Notes under the pieces: model-generated
Told to the model about the DNA's origin: nothing
Databases searched by the model: none
The model's input: only the letters and a program-made list of their open reading frames with translations
Translations under genes and position numbers: made by a program
Source: a virus
Virus record (IMG/VR): IMGVR_UViG_3300027851_000127
Span: 1 to 24,623 of that record
Direction: 5' to 3' (one strand)
DNA length: 24,623 bases
Part shown: piece by piece, positions 6,086-23,857 of the stretch
How positions within the stretch are numbered: position 1 is the first letter of the stretch
Layout of the letters: the number at the start of each line of letters is the position of its first letter

Positions 6086-6514
6086 ATGATTGACAAAATT
6101 CCCTACGATCATGCAGGTCAAAAAGCAAGACATTGTAGAATTTGTGGGGAATTTAAACCTGCGGATCAATTTGGTCTTGTAAAAAGTAAAGCCTCTTATG
6201 GGGGCTATCAAGCATTAAATGCTTGTTTGTGTTGTGATAAGCAACGAAAATTTGCATCTCACCTTAAGAACAAGTATGGACTGTCTTGGGAGACCTATAC
6301 ACAAATGGTAGAGGAACAGGGTAATAAATGTTACCTGTGTAACCAACCACCATCTGATGTTTTTGATAAGTTGGTTGTTGATCACTGTCATAAAACAGGG
6401 CAAGTCAGAAAACTGTTATGTCGAATGTGTAATATACACTTGACTAAAATAGAAGCTTGTCCTGACTATCTTGATCGAGTTGTTTCGTACTTAAAGTACA
6501 ACAACGTGGCCTAA
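6086..6514 (+). CDS. Endonuclease VII-type (His-Me finger) nuclease, likely homing
   Basis: A 142-residue protein. The C-terminal 80 residues match the recombination endonuclease VII family: GLSWETY, the zinc pair C82/C85, the catalytic VVDHCHKTG (D99-H100, H102), and LLCRMCN with the second zinc pair C112/C115 and N116. The N-terminal 55 residues add another double CxxC module (C17/C20, C47/C50) like that of the HNH protein at 2447. T4 endonuclease VII resolves DNA junctions, but short free-standing relatives in phage structural operons more often behave as homing endonucleases. The gene starts 12 bases after the capsid stop with no clear Shine-Dalgarno sequence and has AT-rich codons, in sharp contrast to both flanking genes, which suggests later insertion. 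Confidence 0.85.
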   Translation: MIDKIPYDHAGQKARHCRICGEFKPADQFGLVKSKASYGGYQALNACLCCDKQRKFASHLKNKYGLSWETYTQMVEEQGNKCYLCNQPPSDVFDKLVVDHCHKTGQVRKLLCRMCNIHLTKIEACPDYLDRVVSYLKYNNVA

Positions 6515-11228: not shown

Positions 11229-11792
11229 ATGGACAAGTTTTTTAACGAGATTGGTTCTCTCTTTCCTCGTATGTCCGAAAAGCAACGAGCAGGTTTAATC
11301 AGTCTCGTTAATGCAACTCGGAACCTACCTCTTGGGCAAAGAGCTTACCTACTTGCAACCACTTATCACGAGACAGCATTTACCATGCAACCTATTACGG
11401 AGTTTGGTGGTGTTAAGTATTTTGAAAAGTACGACACAGGTAGGTTGGCTGCTGCTCTGGGCAACACTCCTCAGGCAGACGGAGATGGTTACTTCTTTCG
11501 TGGGAGAGGTTACGTTCAGATTACAGGACGAGCCAATTACATCAAAGCTGGTAAAGCCCTTCGTCTCAATCTAGTTGAAAAACCTGATCTTGCATTAGAA
11601 CCTCGTATTGCTGCTGAAATCCTTATTAAAGGTTCAACAGAAGGTTGGTTCACAGGTAAGAAGCTTAGTGACTATATCAATGACACTAAGACAGATTATC
11701 GTAATGCAAGACGAGTAATCAACGGATTAGATAAAGCAGATACCATTGCAAGGTATGCTAAGGTATTTGAAACAGCATTACGTCATCTATAA
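11229..11792 (+). CDS. Endolysin, glycoside hydrolase family 19 type
   Basis: A 187-residue lysozyme that would cut the peptidoglycan glycan strand. It shows GH19 chitinase-like marks: H47-E48-T49 with E48 the probable catalytic acid, then GDGYFFRGRGYVQITGRANY (about residues 85-104), the conserved substrate-cleft loop of the family, and a C-terminal helical part. No signal peptide is present, so export needs a holin. The frame is open further upstream, but the ATG at 11229 has AGGAAG 5 bases before it and follows the previous stop by one base. It is followed by an AT-rich gap and then the holin/spanin cluster. Confidence 0.87.
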   Translation: MDKFFNEIGSLFPRMSEKQRAGLISLVNATRNLPLGQRAYLLATTYHETAFTMQPITEFGGVKYFEKYDTGRLAAALGNTPQADGDGYFFRGRGYVQITGRANYIKAGKALRLNLVEKPDLALEPRIAAEILIKGSTEGWFTGKKLSDYINDTKTDYRNARRVINGLDKADTIARYAKVFETALRHL

Positions 11793-11905: not shown

Positions 11906-12265
11906 ATGGCATTAGTTACTCAGGCCAGTAAGTTCCCTACACGAAAGATCATGGCAGTGATCATTTCTGGTATGATTACTGGTGTCATTCAAAGCCTTCT
12001 TCGTTATTACTGGCCTGATCACCCTTTCAGCCCGTACATGGAAGATGTGGATATTTGGCTGCAAGGGGTGATCATGGTATATGCAGGGTATATGACGAAG
12101 GAAAAAGAAAATGTTTCTGATAAACAAACTGATTTCCTACAAGAACCTAATCCTAGCGTTTCTAGCCAGCTTTCTTTTAATCCTCTTTGGGGCAATGAAA
12201 AAGAAAGAGGGGAAGATCGAGGTGGAGAACAAAATCTTGAAGGACAAAGAGGAGAGCCTCAATGA
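11906..12265 (+). CDS. Holin (two-span) with a C-terminus overprinted on the i-spanin
   Basis: A 119-residue protein. The N-terminal part follows a holin pattern seen in marine phages: a short polar start with PTRK, a first hydrophobic span (about residues 16-34, MAVIISGMITGVIQSLL) and a second (about 52-66, WLQGVIMVYAGYM), followed by a charged segment. The ATG at 11906 has AAGGTG upstream. Residues 70-119 are polar, low complexity and without structure, and their DNA is shared in another frame with the inner spanin. The stop codon overlaps the o-spanin ATG (ATGA). It would make the membrane pores that release or activate the endolysin. Confidence 0.68.
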   Translation: MALVTQASKFPTRKIMAVIISGMITGVIQSLLRYYWPDHPFSPYMEDVDIWLQGVIMVYAGYMTKEKENVSDKQTDFLQEPNPSVSSQLSFNPLWGNEKERGEDRGGEQNLEGQRGEPQ

Positions 12266-12371
12266 AGCTCGTAGAGATGTTGCGCGAGAAAAAAGGGCCG
12301 TTGACGGGCTTTCTGATAGCGATCTTGTTGACCGCCTGCGCCGCAGGGGTGACGATTGGGGCAGGTTGTGA
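12111..12371 (+). CDS. Inner-membrane spanin subunit (Rz-like)
   Basis: An 86-residue protein with an N-terminal transmembrane anchor (about residues 11-29, LILAFLASFLLILFGAM) followed by a Lys/Glu-rich periplasmic coiled coil (31-65) and the ending DLVDRLRRRGDDWGRL, a layout typical of Rz-type i-spanins. It starts inside the holin gene in another frame, 155 bases before the holin stop, with an AAGGA-type site upstream, and overlaps the o-spanin gene by 110 bases. The product would pair with the outer-membrane lipoprotein to fuse the two membranes at the last step of lysis. Confidence 0.8.
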   Translation: MFLINKLISYKNLILAFLASFLLILFGAMKKKEGKIEVENKILKDKEESLNEARRDVAREKRAVDGLSDSDLVDRLRRRGDDWGRL

Positions 12372-12486
12372 AGTTTATGCTTCGTACCGAGTGACTATGC
12401 CCGACCCTACAGGAGCTTCGAGGGCTTTTCTGGAATGGTTTAATTACCTTGATACTGAAATGCTAAGTGTTTGTAAGAGGGGCTAA
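12262..12486 (+). CDS. Outer-membrane spanin lipoprotein (Rz1-like)
   Basis: A 74-residue protein with a lipoprotein signal: basic K10-K11, a hydrophobic stretch, and the lipobox LTAC with the acylated cysteine at C26. The mature chain is about 49 residues and contains two more cysteines (C36 and C71). Its ATG overlaps the holin stop (ATGA), GGAGAG lies just upstream, and the first 110 bases overlap the i-spanin in a different frame, the classic Rz/Rz1 arrangement. It would sit in the outer membrane and complete the spanin bridge, which indicates a Gram-negative host. Confidence 0.8.
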   Translation: MKLVEMLREKKGPLTGFLIAILLTACAAGVTIGAGCEVYASYRVTMPDPTGASRAFLEWFNYLDTEMLSVCKRG

Positions 12487-19887: not shown

Positions 19888-20589
19888 TTACAGCTTCTCA
19901 CTCTCAAAGGCGATGAGCCACTGCTTACAGGTGTCACTACGAACAATGTCATCAATACCAAACTCAATCACAGGAACATCCATATGATATTTCTTTGCGA
20001 GGTGGATGATCTTAGACAACCCAGATTGCTCTTTGATGTCACTTTGTTTTACATCCCCGTTGATGACCACCTTAGTCCCTTCCCCGATACGGGTTAGGAA
20101 CATCTTCATTTCTGCTACCGTTGTGTTCTGAGCTTCATCAAGAATAACAAAAGCGTTCTTAAACGATCTACCACGCATAACCGACATAGGAGACAGTTCG
20201 ATATTGCCATTCTTGATGTCAGTTTTAACCTTCTCCTTACCAAGACGTTCTTGGAGAACATCTACAACAGGTGCAGCCCAAGGACCAAACTTCTCGTTCA
20301 GGTCTCCGGGAAAGTAGCCAAGGTCTTTACCTACAGCTACGTTAGGACGAGTGAGGACAATCTTGTCTACCTGCTTGGTAAGGTACATATTAGCTGCCAT
20401 AGTTGCAGCAATAAAGGTTTTTCCTGTTCCGGAGTAACCACAGACAATAGTTTGATCCGAGTGTTTTAAGGCGTCGATATAAAGTCGTTGGTTCTCGTTG
20501 AGTGGCTGCAGATCAAAGATACGTGCTGCAGCTTCCTCAGGAGCGTTTTTGTATCGAGAGACACGTTTACCCTTCGGCTTTTCGAACAT
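19888..20589 (-). CDS. phoH: PhoH-like P-loop ATPase
   Basis: A 233-residue phage PhoH. It shows Walker A GYSGTGKT (residues 51-58), the family segment LTRPNVAVGKDLGYFPGDLNEK (79-100), Walker B FVILDEAQNT (147-156) and INGDVKQSD (176-184). The size matches the short, single-domain phage version. PhoH is an ATPase widespread in marine phages; its role is unsettled, with RNA helicase or RNase-associated function and phosphate-stress links proposed. The start was placed at 20589 because AAGGAT lies 8 bases upstream; an ATG 25 codons further upstream lacks a good site and lies inside another small gene. It is the last gene of the - strand unit. Confidence 0.9.
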   Translation of the reverse strand: MFEKPKGKRVSRYKNAPEEAAARIFDLQPLNENQRLYIDALKHSDQTIVCGYSGTGKTFIAATMAANMYLTKQVDKIVLTRPNVAVGKDLGYFPGDLNEKFGPWAAPVVDVLQERLGKEKVKTDIKNGNIELSPMSVMRGRSFKNAFVILDEAQNTTVAEMKMFLTRIGEGTKVVINGDVKQSDIKEQSGLSKIIHLAKKYHMDVPVIEFGIDDIVRSDTCKQWLIAFESEKL

Positions 20590-20743
20590 TATTTTTATCC
20601 TTGGGGGTGAGGTCAAACCCCATCTTAAATTGATTTCTGATGATGAAAGGTTCACCATGAACATCTAACACCATCGACTGTCTTTCAGGAGGTTCCTCCC
20701 AGACCGTGATAGTCTGGGAGGGAGTATTATACCACCAGCTCAT
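20567..20743 (-). CDS. Small protein (58 aa) overlapping the phoH start
   Basis: A 58-residue ORF beginning MSWWYNTPSQTITVWEEPP and ending DLTPKDKNNVRKAEG. Its ATG overlaps the stop of the 29-residue ORF (TAATG) and it overlaps phoH by 23 bases in another frame, which fits tight operon packing and translational coupling to phoH. The Trp/Pro-rich start and the VLDVHGEPF and GFDLTPKDK segments look like a folded small phage protein and not a chance frame. No membrane span or Cys is present. Function unknown. A strong DNA hairpin lies inside it (20695-20721). Confidence 0.62.
   Translation of the reverse strand: MSWWYNTPSQTITVWEEPPERQSMVLDVHGEPFIIRNQFKMGFDLTPKDKNNVRKAEG
20695..20721 (-). other. 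Perfect 10-bp hairpin inside a small gene
   Basis: CCTCCCAGAC (20695-20704) and GTCTGGGAGG (20712-20721) are exact inverted complements around a 7-base loop; one U-G and one U-A pair could extend the stem to 12. There is no T run on the - strand side, so it does not look like a terminator. It could be an RNA-processing or mRNA-stability element ahead of phoH, or a protein-binding site. Confidence 0.6.
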
Positions 20744-20837: not shown

Positions 20838-22805
20838 TTATCCATTGATGTCTACGATCTCGCAAACTCCGCCAACACACGCGAAGGTGCTAGAACCTTT
20901 TGAGGTATCTTCAAACTCATACTCACTAAGCTTAGTCCAGTCAATCTTCTTAGGCATAAGAGCCAGAAGCTCCTCGTACTCGTGCTTCGTAATGTCCTGA
21001 TAAGGGGCTTGCTGGTAAGTGTGGTCTGAGTGAGGCAGGAAACTGATACCAGACACTTCGTCAAAGTGCTTATATACCCAAGCACCCACTTCCAACCATT
21101 CATGATCACGGACAGTGACAGTGATGGAGGGCTTATGCTCACACCAATGACGTTGATATACCAGCCACAGCTCAAGCTGTTCGATGGCCGACATATCGTT
21201 ACGAGTGATGGCACCATCAGGAGACTTCATCGGGAACGAGAAGACAGTGGTACTCTCAGGCTTCATAACATCAGGTTCACTCGGGATACCTTGATCCTTC
21301 ATAAACTGCGTCAGAGGGTCTTTGTTATCGCCTCTAACAGTGCGAATGTAATAAGCAGAATGGCGGGCATGGATACCAGAAGCACTATCAACCAACTGGC
21401 TAACCGTCCCAGAGGGCTTGACACAAGTGATAGCCGCACTAGCAGGAATGCCAAGGCGATCAGCCCAATCGCGGTTAGTAGTGACAGCAACATTTTTTAG
21501 ATGCTCCAAGACTTGTGCAAGGGTCAAATCTTCGTCAAGAGTGTAGGTGAACGAAGTACCAGCGTCCTTATCAATCTTACCATTAAGGATTGGGCTGTCC
21601 ATGATACCCGTCAGCGAGACACCAAGCAATCTCTCTTCCTCAGTGTTATCCTTCCACACTTTACGCAGATACGGGAAATGCGTGTAGGTAGATTGGATAG
21701 TGCCAAGGATCGTAGCCAGTTTCACCTTACGCTCAAGGTCTTCCAGAGTATCGGTAGCACGAACCACAACCTCAGTCAAGTTACAGAACTGATACGGACG
21801 AAGGATAATTTCCGAGCAAGGGTTGGTTCCCCACTCGTAGTTAGGATCACGACGACCATTCTTAGCCGCTTGCTTCTTAGAGGCTACACGAGAGAAGATA
21901 CCACGTTCACCAGACTTGCTTTCGACAAGGGCTGTCCACTCACGAAGGAAGGTCTCCATGTCAGGCTTTTCGGTGTAGGACACCGAGTTGTTAGCCAGAG
22001 AACGGTGAGCAGCTTTCTCCCACCAAGACCCACTCTTAGCATGACGCATACGATCATCTGACAGGTTGGACAAGCTGATCATAGCCGAGCGACGAACGCC
22101 CCCAACAACCACAACTTCCCCAATCTTACACATGAGGTCGTGACACTCAAGCGAACTAAGCTTACGTCCCTTTGCCTTTTGGAACAGGTCAACCGTAAAG
22201 TTGAAAAGCTCTACCAGAGGGCCGGGACCAGACGCACGACCACCAAAGGTTTTAAGACGAGCACCAGCGGGCCTTACTTTGGAGATGTCCCAAGAAGGAA
22301 TTTCACCAGCATATAGGTGAGCGATGAGCTTACGGAAGGCTTTTGCCCACCCCTCTTTACTGTCTTGGACGACAATAACATCTTCGCTACGTTCAATTGC
22401 ATCAGGAACCTCAGGCAAGCGGGAGATGTATTGGCGCTCAACAGAGAAGCCAACACCAGTGCCACAAAGGAGAATAAACATAGCCTCATCGAAGCTACGG
22501 GGGTCATCTACAGGCAGGTACGAACAGTTGTAGCCTGCGGTGTTGTCACGGTTCAAAGCCCCACCAGCGGTCATTACAGCGCGCATAGAGGGGGCAACTT
22601 CACAGTTAAGAAAAGCTTCCCTAATCTGATTAACTACTTCTTTATCACTTTCTGAAACACGAGGGGCGATCACATTAGACACATAGCGATCTACTGTTTC
22701 CTCCCAAGTCTCCCTGCGTTTCTCTTCCTCAATCCACCGAGAGTAACGGCTTGTGTGGATAAAAGCCCTGTAATCGTTTTCGAGATATTTATGCAAAGTG
22801 TTCAC
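20838..22805 (-). CDS. nrdJ: Adenosylcobalamin-dependent (class II) ribonucleotide reductase
   Basis: A 655-residue monomeric class II reductase that makes deoxynucleotides using an adenosylcobalamin radical. Catalytic residues are present and correctly spaced: C94 (GYNCSYLPV), N328, C330 and E332 in NPCSE (C330 the thiyl site), and C341 eleven residues on, with C94 and C341 forming the active-site redox pair. CVKPSGTVSQ lies in the C-terminal half, and C643/C648 (CVGGVC) form the C-terminal shuttle pair. The layout follows the Lactobacillus-type monomeric enzyme, usually triphosphate-specific. It starts at GTG 22805 without a clear Shine-Dalgarno sequence and overlaps the upstream gene by 17 bases. 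Activity would depend on host cobalamin. Confidence 0.93.
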   Translation of the reverse strand: MNTLHKYLENDYRAFIHTSRYSRWIEEEKRRETWEETVDRYVSNVIAPRVSESDKEVVNQIREAFLNCEVAPSMRAVMTAGGALNRDNTAGYNCSYLPVDDPRSFDEAMFILLCGTGVGFSVERQYISRLPEVPDAIERSEDVIVVQDSKEGWAKAFRKLIAHLYAGEIPSWDISKVRPAGARLKTFGGRASGPGPLVELFNFTVDLFQKAKGRKLSSLECHDLMCKIGEVVVVGGVRRSAMISLSNLSDDRMRHAKSGSWWEKAAHRSLANNSVSYTEKPDMETFLREWTALVESKSGERGIFSRVASKKQAAKNGRRDPNYEWGTNPCSEIILRPYQFCNLTEVVVRATDTLEDLERKVKLATILGTIQSTYTHFPYLRKVWKDNTEEERLLGVSLTGIMDSPILNGKIDKDAGTSFTYTLDEDLTLAQVLEHLKNVAVTTNRDWADRLGIPASAAITCVKPSGTVSQLVDSASGIHARHSAYYIRTVRGDNKDPLTQFMKDQGIPSEPDVMKPESTTVFSFPMKSPDGAITRNDMSAIEQLELWLVYQRHWCEHKPSITVTVRDHEWLEVGAWVYKHFDEVSGISFLPHSDHTYQQAPYQDITKHEYEELLALMPKKIDWTKLSEYEFEDTSKGSSTFACVGGVCEIVDING

Positions 22806-23180: not shown

Positions 23181-23630
23181 TTACACTCCAATGTTGTAAT
23201 AGTCGTAGCCCGGAACTTTCACCTCTTCGATGAGGTCTTCCATATCGGCAGGTTTGTAGTTCTTAGATTTGAGAACTTTACCATCTTCACGATAGATGGG
23301 CCTACCATCATCATCAAGTTTGCTCATATTACTCTTATGGACACGTACAAAGGCTACCTGCAGAGGCAGACCAAAGGTTACAGCCATACCTGACAGAACG
23401 TATTGAAGATCAGCCATCTCTTTTAGCATACGCTCTTTAGTCTTCTTTTTTACATCACCAGTCATAGCGATGTCCGTAAGAGCTGCAGCAAACTCCTCTT
23501 TAAGTTCTGTCCACTCTTCGGTCAGGAGTTTGTGACGAAGCAGCAGATCATCTTCTGTCATACGTTTATTAACTGGGTGACCAAAAGCCTTGTGGAACTC
23601 GGTCACTATATCTTCACGGCTCATATACAT
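23181..23630 (-). CDS. MazG-like NTP pyrophosphohydrolase
   Basis: A 149-residue all-alpha pyrophosphohydrolase. Metal-binding acidic residues appear as EEWTELKEE (38-46) and KEMADLQYVL (70-79, E71 and D74), followed by FVRVHKSNMSKL (94-105) and GKVLKSKNYKPADM, typical of the phage MazG/PRA-PH-like family. It would hydrolyse nucleoside triphosphates to monophosphates, either cleaning the nucleotide pool or altering alarmone-like signals. The ATG at 23630 was chosen because GGAGG lies 6 bases upstream; it overlaps the previous gene's stop (TGATG). It fits beside nrdJ as part of a nucleotide-metabolism unit. Confidence 0.8.
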   Translation of the reverse strand: MYMSREDIVTEFHKAFGHPVNKRMTEDDLLLRHKLLTEEWTELKEEFAAALTDIAMTGDVKKKTKERMLKEMADLQYVLSGMAVTFGLPLQVAFVRVHKSNMSKLDDDGRPIYREDGKVLKSKNYKPADMEDLIEEVKVPGYDYYNIGV

Positions 23631-23857
23631 CACTCACCTCCGCCGTTTACAATTGCTTCTGCCAAACCTTGCAGACGATAGATAGCATACACAAGGTCAC
23701 GACGATGTTCAAAATTACACCCAACAGAGATTTCACCATTTGTCTTCTCAACGAGGAAGATGGCATTAGCATTGTCTTGGCGAAGCTCTTCAATAAACTT
23801 CATGTATTCTTCGTCGTTTTCATCAAGGCTAGACAAGTTAACAATATTTGCAGTCAT
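23630..23857 (-). CDS. Small acidic protein, unknown function
   Basis: A 75-residue soluble protein (SSLDENDEEYMKFIEELRQDN, then IFLVEKTNGEISVGCNF and a C-terminal helix YAIYRLQGLAEAIVNGG). The alternating helix-strand-strand-helix pattern suggests a small alpha/beta fold. The start ATG overlaps the methyltransferase end and the stop overlaps the MazG-like start, so it is tightly coupled to both. No catalytic motif is recognised. Confidence 0.7.
   Translation of the reverse strand: MTANIVNLSSLDENDEEYMKFIEELRQDNANAIFLVEKTNGEISVGCNFEHRRDLVYAIYRLQGLAEAIVNGGGE

Follow-up and report, generated by a model that had tools for sequence, protein, structure and literature searches.

The window analysed here is a 24.6-kb stretch of DNA that represents one virus record (IMGVR_UViG_3300027851_000127). 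It encodes a portal protein of the SU10 type and a glycine-rich tail protein, and directly 3' of its lysis genes lies the gene of a conserved 495-aa virion protein with relatives in HMO-2011, the Roseobacter CRP phages and Pelagibacter HTVC033P. The window comes from a tailed phage, probably marine, and this virion gene is akin to genes of HMO-2011-type marine podoviruses. Elsewhere in the window, a recombination endonuclease VII-like gene (6086-6514; PF02945, E 7.1e-22) is situated amid structural genes, possibly as a homing-type insertion, and minus-strand genes of host-metabolism type (20838-22805, 19888-20664 and 23181-23633) gave matches to B12-type ribonucleotide reductase, PhoH and a PRA-PH/MazG-like pyrophosphohydrolase.

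The lysis cassette comprises a 74-aa ORF, a glycoside hydrolase family 19 (GH19)-like endolysin gene and the genes of a putative holin, i-spanin and o-spanin, in this order (Table 1). Judged from its genes, it is of the ordinary Gram-negative phage type, with an endolysin, a predicted two-helix holin and an overlapped Rz/Rz1-type spanin pair. The first-pass annotation had placed the last three genes in three different forward frames, and this proved exact (their starts fall in frames 2, 0 and 1, modulo 3), as did the overlaps of 155 nt between holin and i-spanin (12111-12265) and 110 nt between i-spanin and o-spanin (12262-12371) and the ATGA in which all three frames meet. It also had the last third of the holin overprinted, which was right about the overlap and understated its size, since the tail of residues 69-119 makes up 43% of the protein. 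Shine-Dalgarno-like sequences precede the holin, i-spanin and o-spanin starts (AAGGTG, GAAGGA and AGGAGA, respectively), and all three putative proteins are presumably made. Promoter and terminator scans yielded signals at or near chance level. The 74-aa ORF, with one helix and a coiled-coil-like character, has similar-sized counterparts at the same position in most relatives and a weak match to PHROG 739 'Rz-like spanin' (E 0.054); its product is possibly an accessory lysis protein.

Table 1. Features of the lysis cassette, in window coordinates.
Feature	Position	Strand	Basis or remark
Membrane/coiled-coil ORF, 74 aa	11003..11227	+	Just 5' of endolysin; ORF list
Endolysin, glycoside hydrolase family 19-like	11229..11792	+	Pfam PF00182, E 2e-7; PHROG 181 endolysin, E 2.8e-39
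Putative holin, whole ORF, 119 aa	11906..12265	+	ORF list
Putative holin core, residues 1-68, predicted to form two hydrophobic helices (at about 11-35 and 42-65)	11906..12109	+	Conserved in 9 other cassettes
Putative holin run-on tail, residues 69-119 and TGA stop	12110..12265	+	-1 (+2) frame of i-spanin
Putative i-spanin (Rz-like), N-terminal membrane helix and charged periplasmic region	12111..12371	+	PHROG 1026; hydropathy
Putative o-spanin (Rz1-like lipoprotein), lipobox LTAC at residues 23-26	12262..12486	+	+1 frame of i-spanin
ATGA, o-spanin start codon overlapping holin stop codon	12262..12265	+	Sequence; identical in L004

Relatives were sought by scanning IMG/VR contigs, labelled L004-L034 here. 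Protein searches of isolate phage genomes with the holin, i-spanin and o-spanin gave no match, and neither did genome-collection scans for relatives of the cassette, so every comparison is limited to IMG/VR contigs. There, a homologous spanin pair lies 5' of the same virion protein in 8 other contigs, and the same holin is present in 9 contigs besides L004. The endolysin type varies beside the conserved spanins: it is GH19-like in the window, L007 and L027, a lysozyme in L004 with a similar sequence in L010, an amidase in L017, and a protein lacking a Pfam match in L006, with similar sequences in L005 and L015.

The predicted i-spanin has a hydropathy peak at residues 7-31 followed by charged sequence, and matches the Rz-like spanins of PHROG 1026 with E 0.0016, its orthologues reaching 2e-5 (L008) and 1e-4. 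The o-spanin carries the lipobox LLTAC at residues 22-26, with Cys26 invariant in six aligned sequences and also present in L010, L015 and L017; orthologues with the conserved lipobox Cys occur in 8 other cassettes, and the match to the lipoprotein-site model PF08139 is weak (E 0.17). Its start lies inside the i-spanin gene, in the +1 frame in every cassette examined, and its end 115 nt beyond the i-spanin end. With an i-spanin helix, an o-spanin lipobox and an o-spanin start within the i-spanin gene, the pair has the predicted features of overlapped two-component spanins, and it would most likely act as overlapped Rz/Rz1-type spanins do (PMC6139136). In the close relative L027 (3501-3718), a holin with a 65% identical core is directly followed by the virion protein, with no i-spanin or o-spanin between; either its spanins are encoded elsewhere or outer-membrane disruption differs in this phage.

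Among the contigs compared, only the window and L004 carry a holin of 119 residues. In L004, as in the window, the i-spanin ATG falls at holin codon 69 and the holin stop within the o-spanin ATGA. The same holin is shorter, 68-78 aa according to the start codon used, in L006, L007, L008, L009, L010, L027 and L032-L034; its stops there fall where the i-spanin begins or slightly beyond, frequently in ATGA or TAATG. Further viral-contig scans did not detect a third relative with the run-on. Trees grouped the window and L004 on the spanins (99/98); for the neighbouring virion protein, the window, L004 and L010 formed a single clade (100/99). L010 shares the frame relation, with the i-spanin start at holin codon 69 and a holin stop at codon 75, resulting in an overlap of 20 nt, and is a plausible intermediate toward the full run-on. 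Moreover, in L015 the frame is open from the stop of its own holin to the o-spanin GTGA, one stop codon short of a full run-on. Variability of the i-spanin N-terminus prevents the exact stop-removing mutation from being read from the sequences.

The window and L004 align free of gaps across the cassette, and the test of the tail rests on these two run-on sequences. The holin core is identical at 56 of 68 residues (82%) and the tail at 12 of 51 (24%) with no conserved motif, while the i-spanin part under the tail retains 25 of 50 residues (50%). Codon-by-codon comparison, which the first-pass annotation had proposed, revealed that nucleotide changes in 12111-12260 follow i-spanin codons and not holin codons (20/10/31 at positions 1/2/3 of the i-spanin codon). 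Counted by holin codons, this stretch changes least at third positions, the reverse of the pattern in the holin core (10/9/30). The adjacent i-spanin/o-spanin overlap served as internal control and does show constraint in both frames, with 13/11/7 changes at positions 1/2/3 of the i-spanin codon, so that dual coding is detectable where it is real. Third positions of the i-spanin changed in 7 of 36 codons in this overlap vs 31 of 50 in the holin-tail overlap (Fisher P 1.4e-4), and suppression in both frames was not detected between the two sequences where the holin tail covers the i-spanin. The low tail identity and the distribution of changes imply that the tail is not detectably constrained as a protein, for which the evidence is strong but not final. 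Together with the short holins in nine relatives, the i-spanin-frame changes indicate an ancestral i-spanin frame and a derived, unconserved run-on tail on the holin, which bears out the direction of change first proposed. Holins that stop soon after residue 70, which had been regarded as potential counter-evidence, do exist; they confirm the extension and leave the overlap intact.

Whether the frame is kept open irrespective of its sequence is a separate question. Of 443 stretches of 50 codons taken from genes of the window itself, 0.2% are open in the corresponding relative frame. With its i-spanin recoded synonymously, the window kept an open frame at P about 0.0005-0.0007 and L004 at 0.007-0.010, and, given an open ancestor, a simple recoding model predicts an open frame in both with P 0.001-0.02, despite 41% nucleotide divergence. 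However, permutation of the actual i-spanin codon set gave an open frame with P about 0.25-0.28, so openness alone is not decisive. Stops in this frame are likewise scarcer in other i-spanins than the recoding model expects, and L015 is open on its own after position 26. These comparisons are suggestive of selection for an open frame, and no more than that.

Altogether, the data are probably best explained by an ordinary lysis cassette in which the holin stop was lost in an ancestor shared by the window and L004, leaving the tail as a freely changing by-product of the run-on. In this ancestor, the holin would have lost the stop normally located at the i-spanin start; translation would then pass over the initial 51 codons of the i-spanin in its -1 frame and terminate at the TGA that ATG-A, the o-spanin start, invariably creates there. 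Residues 1-68 would do the membrane work, while the 51-residue tail, hydrophilic and probably disordered, would be a by-product whose sequence can change freely. The short form of the holin in all relatives bar L004, the stop at codon 75 within the same clade, the single stop remaining in L015, the substitution pattern with its positive control, and AlphaFold2 pLDDT values below 50 for most of residues 67-119 argue for this explanation. The comparisons establish the anatomy of the run-on, its phylogenetic distribution, the direction of change and the frame under constraint. We infer that the tail is cytosolic and either close to neutral or associated with only a modest shift in lysis timing. 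With two run-on sequences, selection on the tail is weakly tested, and the frame that stayed open in both despite their divergence hints at selection for openness.

A possibility which we regard as unlikely is that selection keeps the run-on because holin termination is shifted away from the beginning of the i-spanin and onto that of the o-spanin, which would couple o-spanin translation to holin translation, so that the open frame matters and the tail sequence is irrelevant. The low recoding and conditional probabilities in two strongly diverged lineages favour such coupling, and L006, L007, L032 and L017 couple the holin to the i-spanin via ATGA or TAATG, so that a shifted junction would change gene ratios. 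The ATGA could have consequences for translational coupling. However, an o-spanin start codon followed by A creates a TGA in the -1 frame of the i-spanin; the ATGA is automatic, a holin reading through in this frame must stop there, and the junction needs no special explanation. In several relatives, GTGA occupies the matching position. Furthermore, the o-spanin is preceded by a good ribosome-binding site of its own (AGGAGA in the window, AGGAGG in L004), RNA folding around the starts was unremarkable with no unusual structure hiding the o-spanin start (z -0.26 and -0.95), and the codon-set permutation, the stop-poor i-spanins of other relatives and the independently open L015 all weaken the case. 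That the stop loss couples translation of the hole-former to the outer-membrane spanin, bypassing the inner-membrane one, with selection keeping the 50-codon frame open to this end while its protein sequence drifts, seems rather improbable.

It is also doubtful, and in our estimation quite improbable, that the small membrane protein is another lysis regulator, such as an antiholin, with the holin encoded elsewhere, for instance by the 74-aa ORF. The window protein and its orthologues gave no significant holin-family match in Pfam or PHROG, which makes the holin assignment less likely but still tenable, as holin families are very diverse. Against this stand its two helices and its position between endolysin and i-spanin, a slot which in L017 is occupied by a non-homologous protein of a recognised holin family (PHROG 1356, E 1.8e-15). 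It is a small protein with a charged C-terminus and two hydropathy maxima, the second modest, as in class II-like holins. An AlphaFold2 model predicted helices at residues 11-35 and 42-77 with low confidence; built on ten sequences, it is poor even in the core. Unrelated small membrane proteins fill the slot in L005, L015 and L017. In L032 (2955-3707) and L034 (398-1150), a phage lysozyme (PF00959, E about 2e-39) is in frame with the two-helix holin without an intervening stop, forming a 250-aa ORF that represents either an endolysin-holin fusion or a holin translated from an internal start; L033 has amidase and holin as separate genes.

A true overprinted domain, in which the tail sequence itself is functional, e.g. 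in cytosolic timing, is very unlikely. Both tails are equal in length, hydrophilic and net acidic (5 K+R/10 D+E in the window and 7/10 in L004), and holin stop-loss mutants of phage P008 were selected in the laboratory (PMC9371310); however, tail length is set by geometry, nine relatives lack a tail, and the tails share less identity than the underlying i-spanin frame. That the 119-aa frame is an artefact, either of a sequencing frameshift or because the open frame is not the real holin end, is scarcely credible even for a metagenomic fragment with an unconserved tail, since the independent contig L004, whose neighbouring protein shares 71% identity with that of the window, reproduces the frames, the lengths and the ATGA, and all three proteins align without shifts; sequence error was rejected on account of this identical architecture.

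The cassette is a real and tidy gene overlap generated by run-on, a new arrangement of known parts and no new lysis mechanism. It illustrates how overlapping genes originate by stop-codon loss, with probable intermediate states preserved in relatives, namely a stop located at the i-spanin start, next 20-28 nt beyond it and finally 155 nt beyond it, and with a built-in positive control for dual constraint in the adjacent spanin overlap. For annotators it is a caution that a frame left open across an adjacent gene does not necessarily encode a second conserved protein sequence.

In the literature, as partially covered here, a holin/i-spanin overlap of this length was not found described. The leviviral lysis gene L also bridges two neighbours, coat and replicase, in another frame, as the window i-spanin does; in contrast, L is a de novo gene of an RNA phage, whereas the bridging i-spanin is the older gene. 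The spanin pair resembles the overlapped P2 LysB/LysC type surveyed by Kongari et al. 2018 (PMC6139136) in the N-terminal membrane helix of its i-spanin and in the partial overlap with a +1-frame o-spanin lipoprotein that extends past the i-spanin end. It differs in that the i-spanin is also overlapped by the holin from the other side, which the accessible part of that survey does not describe. In phiX174, genes A and C gained de novo overlapping C-terminal extensions (reviewed in PMC8227390), likewise new C-terminal sequence on an older gene extended over another in a different frame, albeit in other genes of another virus with no holin involved. Loss of a holin stop codon with extension over the next lysis gene has a precedent in lactococcal phage P008, where the holin overlaps the endolysin start and laboratory evolution yielded mutants with a lengthened holin and an unchanged downstream protein; there, the host is Gram-positive, the overlapped gene encodes an endolysin instead of a spanin, and the extension is a few codons long and of laboratory origin (PMC9371310).
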